Program-made: the position numbers and the translations under genes | The notes under the pieces: generated by a model | The model's database searches: none | What the model saw: only the letters and a program-made list of their open reading frames with translations | Told to the model about the DNA's origin: nothing | In this document: positions 35,254 to 40,350 of the stretch, in pieces | Position numbering within the stretch: the first letter of the stretch is position 1 | Layout: the number at the start of each line of letters is the position of its first letter | Source of the DNA: Prochlorococcus sp. AG-363-O15 | GTDB taxonomy: Bacteria; Cyanobacteriota; Cyanobacteriia; PCC-6307; Cyanobiaceae | Assembly (NCBI GenBank): GCA_003278255.1 | Contig: QCFZ01000001.1 | Coordinates: forward strand, 1 to 64,000 | Direction: 5' to 3' | Length of the DNA: 64,000 nt

Positions 35254-35321
35254 CTGATGCAATTTCCAAGCATCCAACCATAAACGGCCAGCCCTCGAAA
35301 TGATTGTCAAAATGATTTTCT

Positions 35322-35395
35322 GCTCCCTTAGCTCAGCTGGATAGAGCAGCTGCCTTCTAAGCAGCCGGTCGTTGGTTCGAATCCAACAGGGGGCG
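35322..35395 (+). tRNA. tRNA-Arg (anticodon TCT)
   Basis: The 74 nt fold into a full cloverleaf. The acceptor stem GCTCCCT pairs with AGGGGGC with one T-G wobble. The D arm is GCTCAGCTGGATAGAGC, the anticodon stem GCTGC/GCAGC with loop CTTCTAA, and the T arm GTTGG TTCGAAT CCAAC. The anticodon is TCT, reading AGA/AGG. CCA is not encoded. It lies just upstream of the HTH gene on the opposite strand. Confidence 0.97.
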
Positions 35396-35684
35396 TATTT
35401 TCAACCATTCCTATTTTCGAAGCACATAAATAAAAGTATTTATAAAAATAGAGACACTAGATTTTTCATATATAAACAAAGAATCTTGTCTCATTTACTA
35501 TGCTTTAAAGAGATTTGCTAAACATTTTTAATCCAACTAATTCTGGTACAAACACAAAAAAATAATTTAAATACTTAATACCTAAAGAGCTTATACGCAA
35601 TCATTTGCAACACTTGCGACAAACAAATTAAGAAAAATAGCCAAATTATGGTCAAATAATTATGGACATAGGGTAATTATTGAC
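35396..35684 (+). other. AT-rich intergenic region after tRNA-Arg
   Basis: These 289 bases have no ORF of credible length on either strand. The composition is very AT-rich. No perfect inverted repeat, integrase core site or tRNA fragment was seen. It probably contains the promoter of the class II aldolase gene. Confidence 0.5.
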
Positions 35685-36371
35685 ATGAGCGAACTAATCA
35701 AAAAGTTCAATAGTTGGAGGGAAGGTCTTGTCCTAAGAAAACAATTAATTGATACTGCAGGAGAAATTAATGGGTTAGGTATAAATCAAGGAAAGTCTGG
35801 AAATCTATCGATAAGAATACCAGGAGGAATGTTAATTACTCCTGGTTCTATTTCATATCAGAAAATTAAACCATATGATCTAGTAGCCCTTGATCTAAAT
35901 GGCAATGCTATTAAGAGTAAAAACAAAGGTTTCCCAAAAAGGCCTTCAAGTGAATGGAAGCTTCATGCAGAAATATATCACAATAGAACTGAAGTAAATG
36001 CAATTATTCATTGTCATTCAATAAATGCAACTGCACTTTCTTGTCATAATAAAGAAATAACAAGTTTCCACTATATGACTGCTATTGCTGGTGGTAAAAC
36101 TATTCGTTGTGCTGAATATGCAACATTTGGGAGCAGTGATCTGCCCAAAAAAACATTAAAGGCTCTCGAAGGGCGCCTAGCTTGTTTATTAGCCCACCAT
36201 GGTCAAATAGCAATAGCTCCTAGCCTAGAAAAAGCATTGGAAATAGCAATAGAAGTCGAGACATTATCAAATATTTATCTAAAGGCATTACAGATAGGTC
36301 CACCAAACAATATTGATTCCAACGAAATGGAAAAGGTCATAGAAAAATTTAATCTCATTAACTATAAATAG
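35685..36371 (+). CDS. class II aldolase/adducin family protein
   Basis: A 228-aa zinc-dependent aldolase-fold protein. Characteristic pieces are GLGINQGKSGNLSIRIPGGMLITPGSI, WKLHAEIYHNRTEVNAIIHCHS (HxH metal ligands) and LLAHHGQIAIAPSLEKALEIA. Relatives include fuculose-1-phosphate aldolase, ribulose-phosphate 4-epimerase and MtnB. The substrate cannot be assigned. It stands alone in an AT-rich region beside tRNA-Arg, without salvage-pathway genes nearby. Confidence 0.88.
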   Translation: MSELIKKFNSWREGLVLRKQLIDTAGEINGLGINQGKSGNLSIRIPGGMLITPGSISYQKIKPYDLVALDLNGNAIKSKNKGFPKRPSSEWKLHAEIYHNRTEVNAIIHCHSINATALSCHNKEITSFHYMTAIAGGKTIRCAEYATFGSSDLPKKTLKALEGRLACLLAHHGQIAIAPSLEKALEIAIEVETLSNIYLKALQIGPPNNIDSNEMEKVIEKFNLINYK

Positions 36372-36390: not shown

Positions 36391-36693
36391 TTAATTTGGC
36401 GGGACTATCTTCTTAAGAGAAATAGCAATCTCTTCACATCTAGTAGATCTCAGTAGAATAGATTCAGAACTCCTCACTTCTACTTGCAGCTGTGATTTAC
36501 TTGAAGATAGCAAAGAAATTATCACCTTAACTAGTGGTTTAGAAAGATCACGTGAGGGTGAAGTTTCTGCATAAACCTGCTTTTGACTAGAAAATTTTTG
36601 AACTACATCAAGTCCTAATTCTCTTAAGGAAGCATCAAAAATACCTAGCAAAGATTTCGAGTTAGAAAAACTAGTCCAGGAGAAAGCGGCCAT
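36391..36693 (-). CDS. hypothetical protein, unrecognised
   Basis: A 100-aa protein without a signal peptide or membrane helix. The N-terminus MAAFSWTSFSNSKSLLGIF is followed by an alternating hydrophobic pattern (VKVIISLLSSSKSQLQVEV) suggesting beta strands. It is convergent with the aldolase gene, 19 bp apart. The start ATG at 36693 is followed upstream by an AT-rich promoter-like region. I cannot name a family. Confidence 0.55.
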   Translation of the reverse strand: MAAFSWTSFSNSKSLLGIFDASLRELGLDVVQKFSSQKQVYAETSPSRDLSKPLVKVIISLLSSSKSQLQVEVRSSESILLRSTRCEEIAISLKKIVPPN

Positions 36694-36946
36694 TAAAAAT
36701 TATTTTTTTTTGTAATTCAAACTCTTTATATACATGTCTCGGTCAAGAAAACAAGAAGCACTTTCCAAAAGCAACTTTTTATACAATTGTCTATTTCATC
36801 ATTATCTCTATAGCGCAGAATATGAAGAAATACAATTCTAAAAATAACAAAGCCTAATAAATACTAAATCATCCAATCAACAAATTATAAAGTGGATTGA
36901 TCGCTAAGGATGCGTTTAACTGTAAATTAAATACACCCTTAGTTCC
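36694..36946 (+). other. AT-rich divergent intergenic region
   Basis: These 253 bases separate the divergent hypothetical (minus) and membrane-hypothetical (plus) genes, so they should contain both promoters. No ORF, tRNA or clear hairpin was seen. The last bases run GTAAATTAAATACACCC before the downstream ATG. Confidence 0.45.
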
Positions 36947-37621
36947 ATGGCTTACTCTGAAGCTGAAGTCCTTGCAGGCGGCCTAGCTCATATCCCAGTA
37001 GCAGTGGGGATTTTAATCTTCATCAACAATATTATCAAAATACGTACTTATAATTCCACTGAACTTGTAAAGCAAGATAAACAGAATACTACTAATATTT
37101 TGAAAAAGAAAAATCCTGTAGACCAAGAAAGAAGTTACTTGAATAAAGATGCTCTGAATTCCGAGATTAATCTTCAAGAAAAGGAAGTGAATCTAACTAT
37201 GACAGAAGAAGCAAATTTAGAAGAAGAAAGTATTTATACAAAAACAACTGAAAGGGAACTACAAACAAATTCAAATGTTCAAAATCAAAGTTTAGAAGAG
37301 CAGGCTCTATTCGAAAGGAGCCTTCAAGAAAAAGCAAATCAAATTGAAGTCGAAGAAATACTTAGAGAATCAAAATCACCTTTTACAAAAAAAGAAAGTG
37401 CTCAAGCAAGTAATTATAAAAAACTCAAATATCTTAATCCATGGAACATTGCTGCTCTGTCTTTACTATTTTTTAGTGGGGGAGCAATTATTCTTTTTGA
37501 AGAAGGCATCCCCCTCAAACATATAAAACAAAATTCTCAAGAGGGCATAAGCAATGAAATAATTATGAAATCTAATCCTCTTCTAAGTTTAGTATCAATC
37601 AACAAGAAGAGGGCTTCTTAA
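36947..37621 (+). CDS. two-helix membrane protein with charged, glutamate-rich middle; unrecognised
   Basis: A 224-aa protein with an N-terminal hydrophobic segment (HIPVAVGILIFINNIIKI) and a second one near residues 163-182 (IAALSLLFFSGGAIILF). Between them is a long Glu/Gln/Lys/Asn-rich stretch (residues 35-150) likely to be helical or disordered. No family is recognised. Such low-complexity composition makes homology searches unreliable. It is flanked by other small membrane proteins, but no operon partner is obvious. Confidence 0.55.
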   Translation: MAYSEAEVLAGGLAHIPVAVGILIFINNIIKIRTYNSTELVKQDKQNTTNILKKKNPVDQERSYLNKDALNSEINLQEKEVNLTMTEEANLEEESIYTKTTERELQTNSNVQNQSLEEQALFERSLQEKANQIEVEEILRESKSPFTKKESAQASNYKKLKYLNPWNIAALSLLFFSGGAIILFEEGIPLKHIKQNSQEGISNEIIMKSNPLLSLVSINKKRAS

Positions 37622-37681
37622 AAAGGGTATACTCTAATGACTAAAATCGAATAATATTCCCTTGCGTGTAAGTTTAATTTC

Positions 37682-37948
37682 TTATTCTCTACCTACATTA
37701 TAGATAAAGTCTTGAAAAGATGGATTATAAAAATAAAGCAGTACCGCAATGAGCAACAAAATATTTAGGCCTATCACAATTGAACCTATAACCATTCTTT
37801 GCCTTTTGCCAGGCATTCTGTATTTCAAACCTGCAGGCAAATTAAGCAATACTTCTTGTTTCTCTTCTGATTTAGGACTAACTTCATTTGAAAAAAAGCC
37901 CTTCTTAGAATTTGAAGCGTTATTAGGGGATCGCTTTTGCTCTTCCAT
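37682..37948 (-). CDS. small single-helix membrane protein, unrecognised
   Basis: An 88-aa protein. A disordered, charged N-terminus (residues 1-45) precedes GLKYRMPGKRQRMV, one membrane helix (IGSIVIGLNILLLIAVLLYFY) and a short tail. The positive residues before the helix predict the N-terminus in the cytoplasm. It is probably conserved among picocyanobacteria, but I cannot assign a family. It is convergent with the preceding membrane-hypothetical gene. Confidence 0.55.
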   Translation of the reverse strand: MEEQKRSPNNASNSKKGFFSNEVSPKSEEKQEVLLNLPAGLKYRMPGKRQRMVIGSIVIGLNILLLIAVLLYFYNPSFQDFIYNVGRE

Positions 37949-38010
37949 AACTTAAAAAAGATCCATTGGTAAAGGATAAATGGAAAACTTCTAAAGAAAA
38001 TAAACTCGTA

Positions 38011-38406
38011 TTAGAGACCTTGGCAAAGTTGCATTACTTCTTTAAGAATGTTCTCAGAGAACATTCCAGGACCAAAACCCAACTGACTCATAATCAAATC
38101 TGCCTCCAGTCCAAGTATTCGAGTTTGACATGGATAATTTTCCTGGGATCCAGCGAAACGCTGAAGCCCTTCAGCCCTAAACAAAGCCTCAGCACAAACA
38201 CCCTCTTCACCCAAACGTAAACATCTTTCTGCTAGTGGGTCCAATCCTTTTAATCGAAAATCAGCAAATGCACAAAAATTAGTTTGAAGGCCTATTCCAC
38301 CAAAAATAAGCAAGAGAGCAAGATTTCTATTAATCAAACGCCAACGAGATTTTTTTAAGAATGCCTCGCATTTGTCTGATAAAAAATGCAAGGTGCCTAA
38401 TTGCAT
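38011..38406 (-). CDS. exported cysteine-containing hypothetical protein
   Basis: About 131 aa from ATG at 38406; the track extends 24 residues further. A basic start and hydrophobic segment (NLALLLIFGGIGLQTNFCAFA) look like a signal peptide. The mature region has cysteines at spaced positions (AERCLRLGEEGVCAEAL, ENYPCQTRI, VMQLCQGL) that could form disulfides in the periplasm or lumen. No family is recognised. Confidence 0.55.
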   Translation of the reverse strand: MQLGTLHFLSDKCEAFLKKSRWRLINRNLALLLIFGGIGLQTNFCAFADFRLKGLDPLAERCLRLGEEGVCAEALFRAEGLQRFAGSQENYPCQTRILGLEADLIMSQLGFGPGMFSENILKEVMQLCQGL

Positions 38407-38591
38407 TCGCCCAACACCTTTGAAACTACAAGGCTTTTCGCACTGTCTTGACAGGTGAAACCTTGAATAACAGCCCATAACGAAGCCCTATTAAAAGACG
38501 CCCTTTTAAACAAGATCAATCAAATGTCAACTGAAAGTGCATTTAAAAGCAATTTACTGACATACTCTGTGGGAGAAAATCAATTTTACGG

Positions 38592-38804
38592 ATGTACTTC
38601 GACTTCCACGCCGTTGCAGCCCTTCTTCACACTGCAATTCCCCTTGCCGCCGGGGCTGCAGGTGTCGGATATTTTGTCATGCGCTCAAAAGGTATAGGTT
38701 TTGGCACCTCACACCTCCTTGTAGGTTTGCCAATGTTTGCAGTAGGTGCAGCCGCAGCAGCCTTGTATTACCTCACAAGTGGAGATGCTTCCTACGCGTT
38801 CTAG
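38592..38804 (+). CDS. small two-helix membrane protein, unrecognised
   Basis: A 70-aa, alanine- and glycine-rich protein with two hydrophobic helices (VAALLHTAIPLAAGAAGVGYFVM and LLVGLPMFAVGAAAAALYYL). The codon use is GC-richer than its surroundings, which suggests a conserved and well-expressed gene. It is followed by the perfect inverted repeat at 38861-38913, probably its terminator. Its function is unknown. Confidence 0.65.
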   Translation: MYFDFHAVAALLHTAIPLAAGAAGVGYFVMRSKGIGFGTSHLLVGLPMFAVGAAAAALYYLTSGDASYAF

Positions 38805-39041: not shown

Positions 39042-39968
39042 TTAATCCGAATAAACACTGGAAATACTATTATAAGCGCCTTCTCTTTTAATTAATTCAC
39101 TTAAAAGTTCTTTTGAGCTTAAAACTGATCCAACTGGCAAGATCTTCATGCTAGCTGCTAAGGATCCAATGATTTGATGAGCTTCAACACCTTCCTTCCT
39201 AAGGGCATTAAGGCCTAAACTATGATCTCTTTTAGATAGTTTTTTACCTTGACCATCACACATTACAGGAACATATTTATATTTCATTGGTTCTTCTCCT
39301 ATGGTATTTATAATAGCAATCTGTCCACACATAGCCATTCTTAAATCATCACCTCTGACAACTTCGTTAATTCCAGAAGTTAAATCATCTACAACAGTAG
39401 CAAGGTTATAGGCAATAAAACCATCAGATCTCCTTAGTATAATATCTCCACTAATCGAAGAGAATTCATTGTCAACTCTTATTCTTAAGCTTGGCAACCT
39501 CCCATTTTCTAAACCCCAAGAATTGTTTAGATCTCTACATGTACCAGGATAGATAGTTGGAGCACCTTTAGACTCTGAAATATTAGCCAATACACTTCTA
39601 GTACAACGACAAGGATATAACTTCCCTTGCCTCTTTAAAGCTGAAAGGACTGAGCTATATAACCCCAGTCTCTTACTTTGAAAAACTATTGGCCCATTCC
39701 ACTCAAGGCCTAACCAAAGAAGATCATCTTGAATACTTTGTATTGCACCTAAACGATTCCTAGGAATATCCAAATCATCAATACGAAGAAACCAAAGGCC
39801 ATTTTTCATTCGAGCCCTCAACCATGAGAGCAATGCAGTTCGAATATTCCCCAAATGCATAGGGCCTGTAGGGGATGGAGCAAAACGACCCCGATAACCC
39901 TGAGCACTTACCTTCTTGCCAAATCTAATTTGCTCAAGCAAATGTTCAGGCAATGCAAATTTTTCCAA
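39042..39968 (-). CDS. gluQ: glutamyl-Q tRNA(Asp) synthetase
   Basis: Truncated GltX paralogue of 308 aa. It loads glutamate onto the queuosine of tRNA-Asp and lacks the anticodon-binding domain. Motifs are RFAPSPTGPMHLGNIRTALLSWL, the zinc-ligand region LYPCRCTRS with GTCRD, and the signature KKLSKRDHS. It is the gene downstream of hup on the same strand, separated by a strong terminator, so it probably has its own promoter. Confidence 0.95.
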   Translation of the reverse strand: MEKFALPEHLLEQIRFGKKVSAQGYRGRFAPSPTGPMHLGNIRTALLSWLRARMKNGLWFLRIDDLDIPRNRLGAIQSIQDDLLWLGLEWNGPIVFQSKRLGLYSSVLSALKRQGKLYPCRCTRSVLANISESKGAPTIYPGTCRDLNNSWGLENGRLPSLRIRVDNEFSSISGDIILRRSDGFIAYNLATVVDDLTSGINEVVRGDDLRMAMCGQIAIINTIGEEPMKYKYVPVMCDGQGKKLSKRDHSLGLNALRKEGVEAHQIIGSLAASMKILPVGSVLSSKELLSELIKREGAYNSISSVYSD

Positions 39969-40074: not shown

Positions 40075-40350
40075 TCAGCCCTGAACACGATCCTTAAACA
40101 TCTTGCCTGCAGTAAAAGCTGGAACACGTTTTGCAGGGATTTTGATCTTCTCACCAGTTTTTGGATTCAGGCCTTGACGAGCTGAACGCTCACGAGGCTC
40201 AAAAGATCCGAAGCCAAGAATGGAAACCTTCTTCCCTTCAACAACAGAATCAATGATGGTGTCAATAGCCGCATCAACGACAAGGGAGACGTCTGTCTTT
40301 GTTAGCTCAGTACGTGCTGCCACCAGGTTGACGAGATCTGCTTTATTCAT
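40075..40350 (-). CDS. hup: HU-family DNA-binding protein
   Basis: A 91-aa nucleoid protein that bends DNA as a dimer. It starts MNKADLVNLVAARTELTKTD and carries the family arm GFGSFEPRERSARQGLNPKTG followed by IPAKRVPAFTAGKMFKD. The higher-GC codon use than the neighbours fits high expression. It has its own terminator and about 165 bp upstream without a gene. Confidence 0.97.
   Translation of the reverse strand: MNKADLVNLVAARTELTKTDVSLVVDAAIDTIIDSVVEGKKVSILGFGSFEPRERSARQGLNPKTGEKIKIPAKRVPAFTAGKMFKDRVQG

Follow-up and report, generated by a model that had tools for sequence, protein, structure and literature searches.

Soluble plant ferredoxin-NADP reductase (FNR, or PetH) is bound at the thylakoid by a separate membrane protein, Tic62 or TROL. 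In the three-domain form of the enzyme, FNR-L, an N-terminal extension consisting of a CpcD linker domain (PF01383, NF058510) and a flexible linker holds FNR at a photosynthetic complex. FNR bound to the phycobilisome linker CpcL docks through CpcD, and cyclic electron flow reportedly depends on this attachment (PMC10322944). Modelling of Prochlorococcus treats FNR as a soluble complex (PMC5082946).

Prochlorococcus is among the most abundant photosynthetic organisms, and the literature searchable here is silent on how its FNR is placed when there are no phycobilisomes. In openly accessible literature, with subscription papers outside this scope, we found no description of the Prochlorococcus FNR N-terminus, nor a published description of the membrane module reported below. 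This module forms the N-terminus of an unannotated gene, here called B, and links it to a re-engineering of FNR in Prochlorococcus.

Gene content and order between the aldolase gene and gluQ

The window analysed is a stretch of 64,000 nucleotides of contig QCFZ01000001.1 of Prochlorococcus sp. AG-363-O15. Five ORFs (A to E, Table 1) were confirmed in the block 36391-38804, with an Aldolase_II gene on one side and GluQRS on the other. Each has homologs in other genomes, so all five are real genes. An Rfam scan yielded nothing but tRNA-Arg.

Table 1. Coordinates of the five genes, of the segments of B discussed in the text, and of flanking features.
Feature	Position	Strand	Characteristics and basis
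tRNA-Arg	35321-35396		Rfam
Class II aldolase-family gene (flank)	35685..36371	+	PF00596 4.9e-46
Gene A	36391..36693	-	100 aa, soluble alpha/beta; patchy family, non-syntenic here
Gene B	36947..37621	+	224 aa; membrane module at N-terminus, predicted coiled coil rich in Glu/Lys, second TM near C-terminus
Shared N-terminal module of B	36947..37045	+	first 33 codons, MAYSEAEVLAGGLAHIPVAVGILIFINNIIKIR; profiles A1/A2, genome search, codon changes
Second hydrophobic segment of B	37442..37498	+	residues 166-184; hydropathy, alignment
Gene C	37682..37948	-	88 aa, one TM
Gene D	38011..38478	-	155 aa, exported helical domain, four invariant Cys
Gene E	38592..38804	+	70 aa, two TM
GluQRS (flank, conserved synteny anchor)	39042..39968	-	NF004314 8.1e-81, above curated cut-off
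HU-like DNA-binding protein (flank, synteny anchor)	40075..40350	-	named from sequence alone, no profile

The initial annotation had described five small proteins of unrecognised families, three or four of them membrane or exported, in DNA of lower GC. These observations were borne out: none of A to E reached a Pfam or NCBIfam cut-off, and four of the five (B to E) are membrane or exported. By hydropathy, B and E each have two hydrophobic segments, C has one, D has one at its N-terminus and A has none. GC content averages 39.1% over the whole window and is 35.8% in the block, which ranks 29 among 616 windows of the same size, but this low value is not the mark of an island; the dip sits in B (32%), C (34%) and intergenic DNA, and D and E have 41% and 53%.

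The further proposal of an accessory, lineage-specific region applies only to A, which is out of place, and not to C, D and E, which are widespread and in fixed order. Conservation searches covered about 100-121 family genomes. Among 121 sampled family genomes, C is present in 44, D in 59 (including Synechococcus types) and A in 20; in the sample of relatives, E was found in 25 genomes of Prochlorococcus type, and Synechococcus has a short form of it. The order B-C-D-E-gluQ-HU is fixed in many low-light Prochlorococcus (e.g. loci L061, L074, L076, L078, L147, L148 and L150), and C-D-E-gluQ-HU without B is found at L065, L068, L069, L071 and L079 in an annotated comparison of 40 loci. Synechococcus keeps D-E-gluQ-HU; at the Synechococcus-type loci L161 and L162 an E form of 38-39 aa lies between D and gluQ, and C and B were not found there. 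Both C and B are missing at the D-E-gluQ site in MIT9313 and Synechococcus, and in one genome group of the annotated comparison E lies about 33 kb from C and D. An identical order in all picocyanobacteria, named in the initial annotation as evidence against lineage specificity, was thus not fully borne out, although many genomes keep the order. B is syntenic, yet fast-evolving beyond its conserved N-terminus. Strain names are used here provisionally: G009, G099, G106, G135, G142 and G266 are taken to be SS120, MIT9313, MIT9211, NATL2A, MIT9312 and MED4, respectively.

A strain-specific, recently acquired cluster would fit the low GC of B and C and the presence of A at a site unseen in other genomes. 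The conserved B-C-D-E-gluQ-HU order and the wide occurrence of C, D and E largely refute this possibility, which we regard as very remote, and the phage and viral collections searched contained no relatives of the N-terminal module or of B, which also speaks against it. PHROGs gave no match for A, B, D or E and one weak match (0.065) for C. Judged from the gene order shared across annotated loci, the locus is for the most part a conserved picocyanobacterial neighbourhood, with A as the newcomer.

Members of the patchy A family lie elsewhere in other genomes. One relative, in G033, adjoins an aldolase-like gene at a different locus, and relatives in four other genomes adjoin a response-regulator-like gene. 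The best fold for the AF2 model of A is KA1-like (E 0.0035, TM 0.58), which is not significant. C ends in the conserved sequence YxxPGKRQRxxxxSxVxGLNxLLxxxxxxYFxxPxFxxFIYxxGR. A paralog of 57-85 aa (KWDYTSxRQNLITG...LLYRTVPAVHQFISGKPL; L199-L204) is found in most low-light genomes; in six genomes (G013, G017, G018, G023, G037 and G048) no more than about 600 bp separate it from a pcb antenna gene. D was found across Prochlorococcus and in many Synechococcus with its four cysteines invariant; its AF2 model is helical, with pLDDT >90 over about residues 80-155, and a PDB fold search gave no match below E 0.3. E is 64-84% identical within Prochlorococcus, and its Synechococcus form has a single TM. 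The idea that E might be PsbX, or a different small subunit of a photosystem, was rejected for want of a Pfam match. An E-like membrane protein of 45 aa (MYQDYTAILLMLLTAIPLAVVAATIFFYIRNNDRK...) is encoded about 1.3 kb from isiA in G115 (L170:3820-3957), a genome that has E beside gluQ as well. C, D and E, the conserved neighbours of B, are small proteins of the membrane or the lumen/periplasm; they probably belong to one membrane system with B, though this connection is weak.

A membrane module common to B, FNR and small proteins

Residues 1 to about 30 of B (MAYSEAEVLAGGLAHIPVAVGILIF) constitute a transmembrane module. Searches with B matched the first 30-60 residues of proteins of 355-430 aa and 90-116 aa in many genomes, and the longer proteins were recognised as FNR by reading their sequences. 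Proteins were assigned to the module family on the basis of an N-terminal M-x-Y/L-S/N...V..GG...x.P followed by a TM, with a significant match to profile A1/A2; B of the window fits this family, with E 3.6e-20 in a profile search of its own genome. In 53 of 121 family genomes, two of them with weak matches only, profile A1 finds carriers of three classes (B, FNR and small proteins), mostly at E 1e-12 to 1e-23 per genome. At the level of sequence, the three classes share one module family. Among the matches listed for profile A2 in 194 class genomes, none lies beyond the family; none of 25 module sequences matched Pfam, and no relative was found in the PDB. Small module proteins are ubiquitous and range from 40 to 135 aa, and those of 40 aa in G266 and 46 aa in G135 consist of the module alone. 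The module thus offers a handle on small picocyanobacterial genes that are wholly unannotated.

Positions M1, Y3, G11, G12, H15 and P17 are invariant in alignment A1, and the conserved set Y3, S4, G11, G12, H15 and P17 is shared by FNR, B and stand-alone proteins down to 40 aa; Synechococcus copies have Ser in place of His15. Over module codons 1-20, B of the window differs from two homologs by 12-14 synonymous changes and 1 nonsynonymous change, an excess which indicates conservation at the protein level and strong purifying selection. In all three classes the net charge is -0.6 to -1.7 ahead of the helix and +1.8 to +2.2 behind it. This bias predicts a topology with the N-terminus outside and the C-terminus in the cytoplasm, which would suit an FNR domain in the cytoplasm.

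The GG at positions 11-12 and the acidic stretch before it recall a double-glycine leader (SEAEVLAGG/LAH), which would be cut by a peptidase-exporter so that B is exported. This reading was rejected as most improbable: conservation extends past GG to H15 and P17; FNR, which begins in the same way, has to work in the cytoplasm; the spacing is unlike that of the usual leader, LSxxELxxIxGG; and no exporter gene was noted among the neighbouring genes read.

Behind its module, B has conserved heptads of the type LKxEVxRLEAEA and the second TM. The homolog in G048 (L061:6615-7433) has a C-terminal LysM domain after TM2 (PF01476, 1.4e-11); B of the window has no LysM, and among the homologs scanned or aligned PF01476 was found in that of G048 only. 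A LysM behind TM2 fits the N-out/C-in topology. It possibly places this homolog on the cell-wall side, in the plasma membrane rather than the thylakoid, and of all the facts it speaks most strongly against a function confined to the thylakoid.

The neighbours of module genes were compared in six related phycobilisome-bearing genomes from three genera, one of which, G144 (with isiA as partner), is a MAG with 4% contamination. All seven module genes of this sample lie within 1.4 kb of isiA or of a gene for a CpcL-type linker, whereas the chance that a random gene lies no more than 3 kb from one or the other is about 0.5%. The distance to isiA is 198-271 bp in G126, G148 and G144 and 1.3 kb for G051 copy 1, and a CpcL-type gene lies 203-294 bp from G051 copy 2 and from the module genes of G004 and G115. 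The CpcL-type neighbour is a PBS-linker protein with a C-terminal membrane segment (PF00427, 7.2e-33 for the G004 copy). It is mainly this association that leads us to suspect a role on the photosystem I (PSI) and antenna side. The linkage with isiA, together with the invariance of His15 in the Prochlorococcus-side alignment A1, could also mean that H15 ligates chlorophyll, with the stand-alone form serving as a small subunit of an antenna or quencher. The Ser of the Synechococcus copies argues against such pigment binding, as does the lack of a visible HLIP-like ExxNxR motif, and we consider it improbable.

Exchange of the FNR N-terminus and loss of phycobilisomes

FNR was detected in 117 of 121 genomes. 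Its alignment begins at residue 1-3, i.e. with the module, in 43 of them, and in four further genomes the profile match shows that the FNR ORF opens with the module, giving 47 Prochlorococcus-side genomes in total; in phycobilisome-bearing (Synechococcus-type) genomes the alignment begins at residue 36 or later. Six FNR N-termini from the latter were read and five scanned. PF01383 (CpcD) was above cut-off in two of the five (1.6e-8 and 7.6e-7) and 0.1 bit short of it in a third, and in the remaining two the CpcD region was covered by the NCBIfam FNR profile only, aligned incompletely. In the module-bearing FNRs at L050 and L144 PF01383 is absent, and the NCBIfam profile match begins after its CpcD part, from position 86-92 on. 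With its 43 residues the module is too short for a tree that could date the fusion, and the FNR catalytic domain was used instead; in its tree the module-bearing FNRs all fall on one side of a single branch (93/86). FNR was not found in the window's own assembly, which is 71% complete; we infer that the strain carries the fusion. These N-termini suggest that Prochlorococcus FNR sits in the membrane instead of being freely dissolved.

A clue to the order of events comes from G002, a basal-looking MAG of 1.9 Mb (85% complete, 2% contamination; loci L327 and L329-L331). It has phycobilisome linkers and an apparent rod-gene region and no Pcb/IsiA match, and its single FNR match is module-bearing and shares its gene order with MIT9313. 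Since this FNR is 83% identical to that of MIT9313, it is not simply from a contaminating MIT9313-like contig. Lineages with phycobilisomes and without pcb, AMZ-II/III, have been placed at the base of Prochlorococcus (PMC11559063). G002 is possibly such a transitional lineage, possibly a chimera; in the former case, a module-bearing FNR in a basal phycobilisome-bearing genome means that the exchange probably preceded phycobilisome loss.

In the complete genome G003, module and linker form a separate ORF of 115 aa that ends in TAG just upstream of FNR, and FNR itself now begins with a different membrane segment (STPAPTAVLAGIGSILLFAIVGLVVGPDYDGMNAP), whereas its congener G050 retains the original module. 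Relatives of the new segment are proteins of 49-73 aa, some of which adjoin a module-only gene. Compared with its sister, G003 indicates that the anchor is exchangeable while a membrane segment is retained. The second small membrane family (STPAPTAVLxGxxSIxLFAIVGLxVGPDYDGMNAP; L034/L109 in G003, L128, L129, L252), one copy of which became this FNR N-terminus, occurs in 23 of 121 genomes, each with 1-4 copies.

The G003 enzyme functions behind a TM segment unrelated to the module, as would also be expected if the module, a single short hydrophobic helix, were a signal-anchor spread by duplication that, lacking a specific partner, fixes FNR and B in any membrane. The LysM of one B homolog, which suggests a different membrane, agrees with this. 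We find such a generic anchor rather unlikely, as the conservation of Y3, S4, G11, G12, H15 and P17 exceeds what a hydrophobic anchor needs, and as all seven neighbourhoods show linkage to isiA or CpcL-type genes.

Proposed role and comparison with known systems

The reading we favour, and think reasonably probable, is that the module is a picocyanobacterial membrane anchor or docking module, perhaps on the photosystem I side, that tethers FNR and B. It would insert in the thylakoid membrane and dock its cargo beside photosynthetic complexes, most likely on the PSI/chlorophyll-antenna side, and would tether FNR where phycobilisomes no longer serve that purpose. The cargo of B would be a cytoplasmic coiled coil closed by the second membrane helix, i.e. 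a membrane-bound spacer or scaffold. A more specific version is put forward tentatively, as a possibility we would not yet bet on: on the PSI/IsiA-Pcb side of the picocyanobacterial thylakoid, the module could serve as a hitherto unrecognised docking helix or small membrane subunit, to which FNR moved before phycobilisomes were lost, with B as a second cargo (scaffold). If true, this move would have allowed cells to lose their phycobilisomes while sustaining NADPH production and cyclic electron flow. A covalent membrane anchor that FNR has in common with other small proteins bears on linear versus cyclic electron flow and on the order of antenna-loss events.

Among known systems, the stand-alone forms of 40-46 aa resemble in size and topology the small single-helix thylakoid proteins (HLIP/SCP, PsbX, PsaI), from which the module differs in having neither a Pfam family nor a PDB match. 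CpcL (CpcG2), the PSI-type phycobilisome linker, is also a membrane anchor of the antenna/FNR system, and module genes in three Synechococcus-type genomes have a divergently oriented CpcL-type gene next to them; however, its TM, which is C-terminal, lies at the opposite end, and the module has no sequence relation to it. The parallel with FNR-L lies in the N-terminal extension and flexible linker, but the Prochlorococcus-side FNR lacks the CpcD fold and has a transmembrane helix module in its place. Tic62 and TROL are alike in bringing FNR to the thylakoid membrane, the role proposed here for the module. This likeness is one of function, and unlike these separate proteins, the module anchor is covalently part of FNR.
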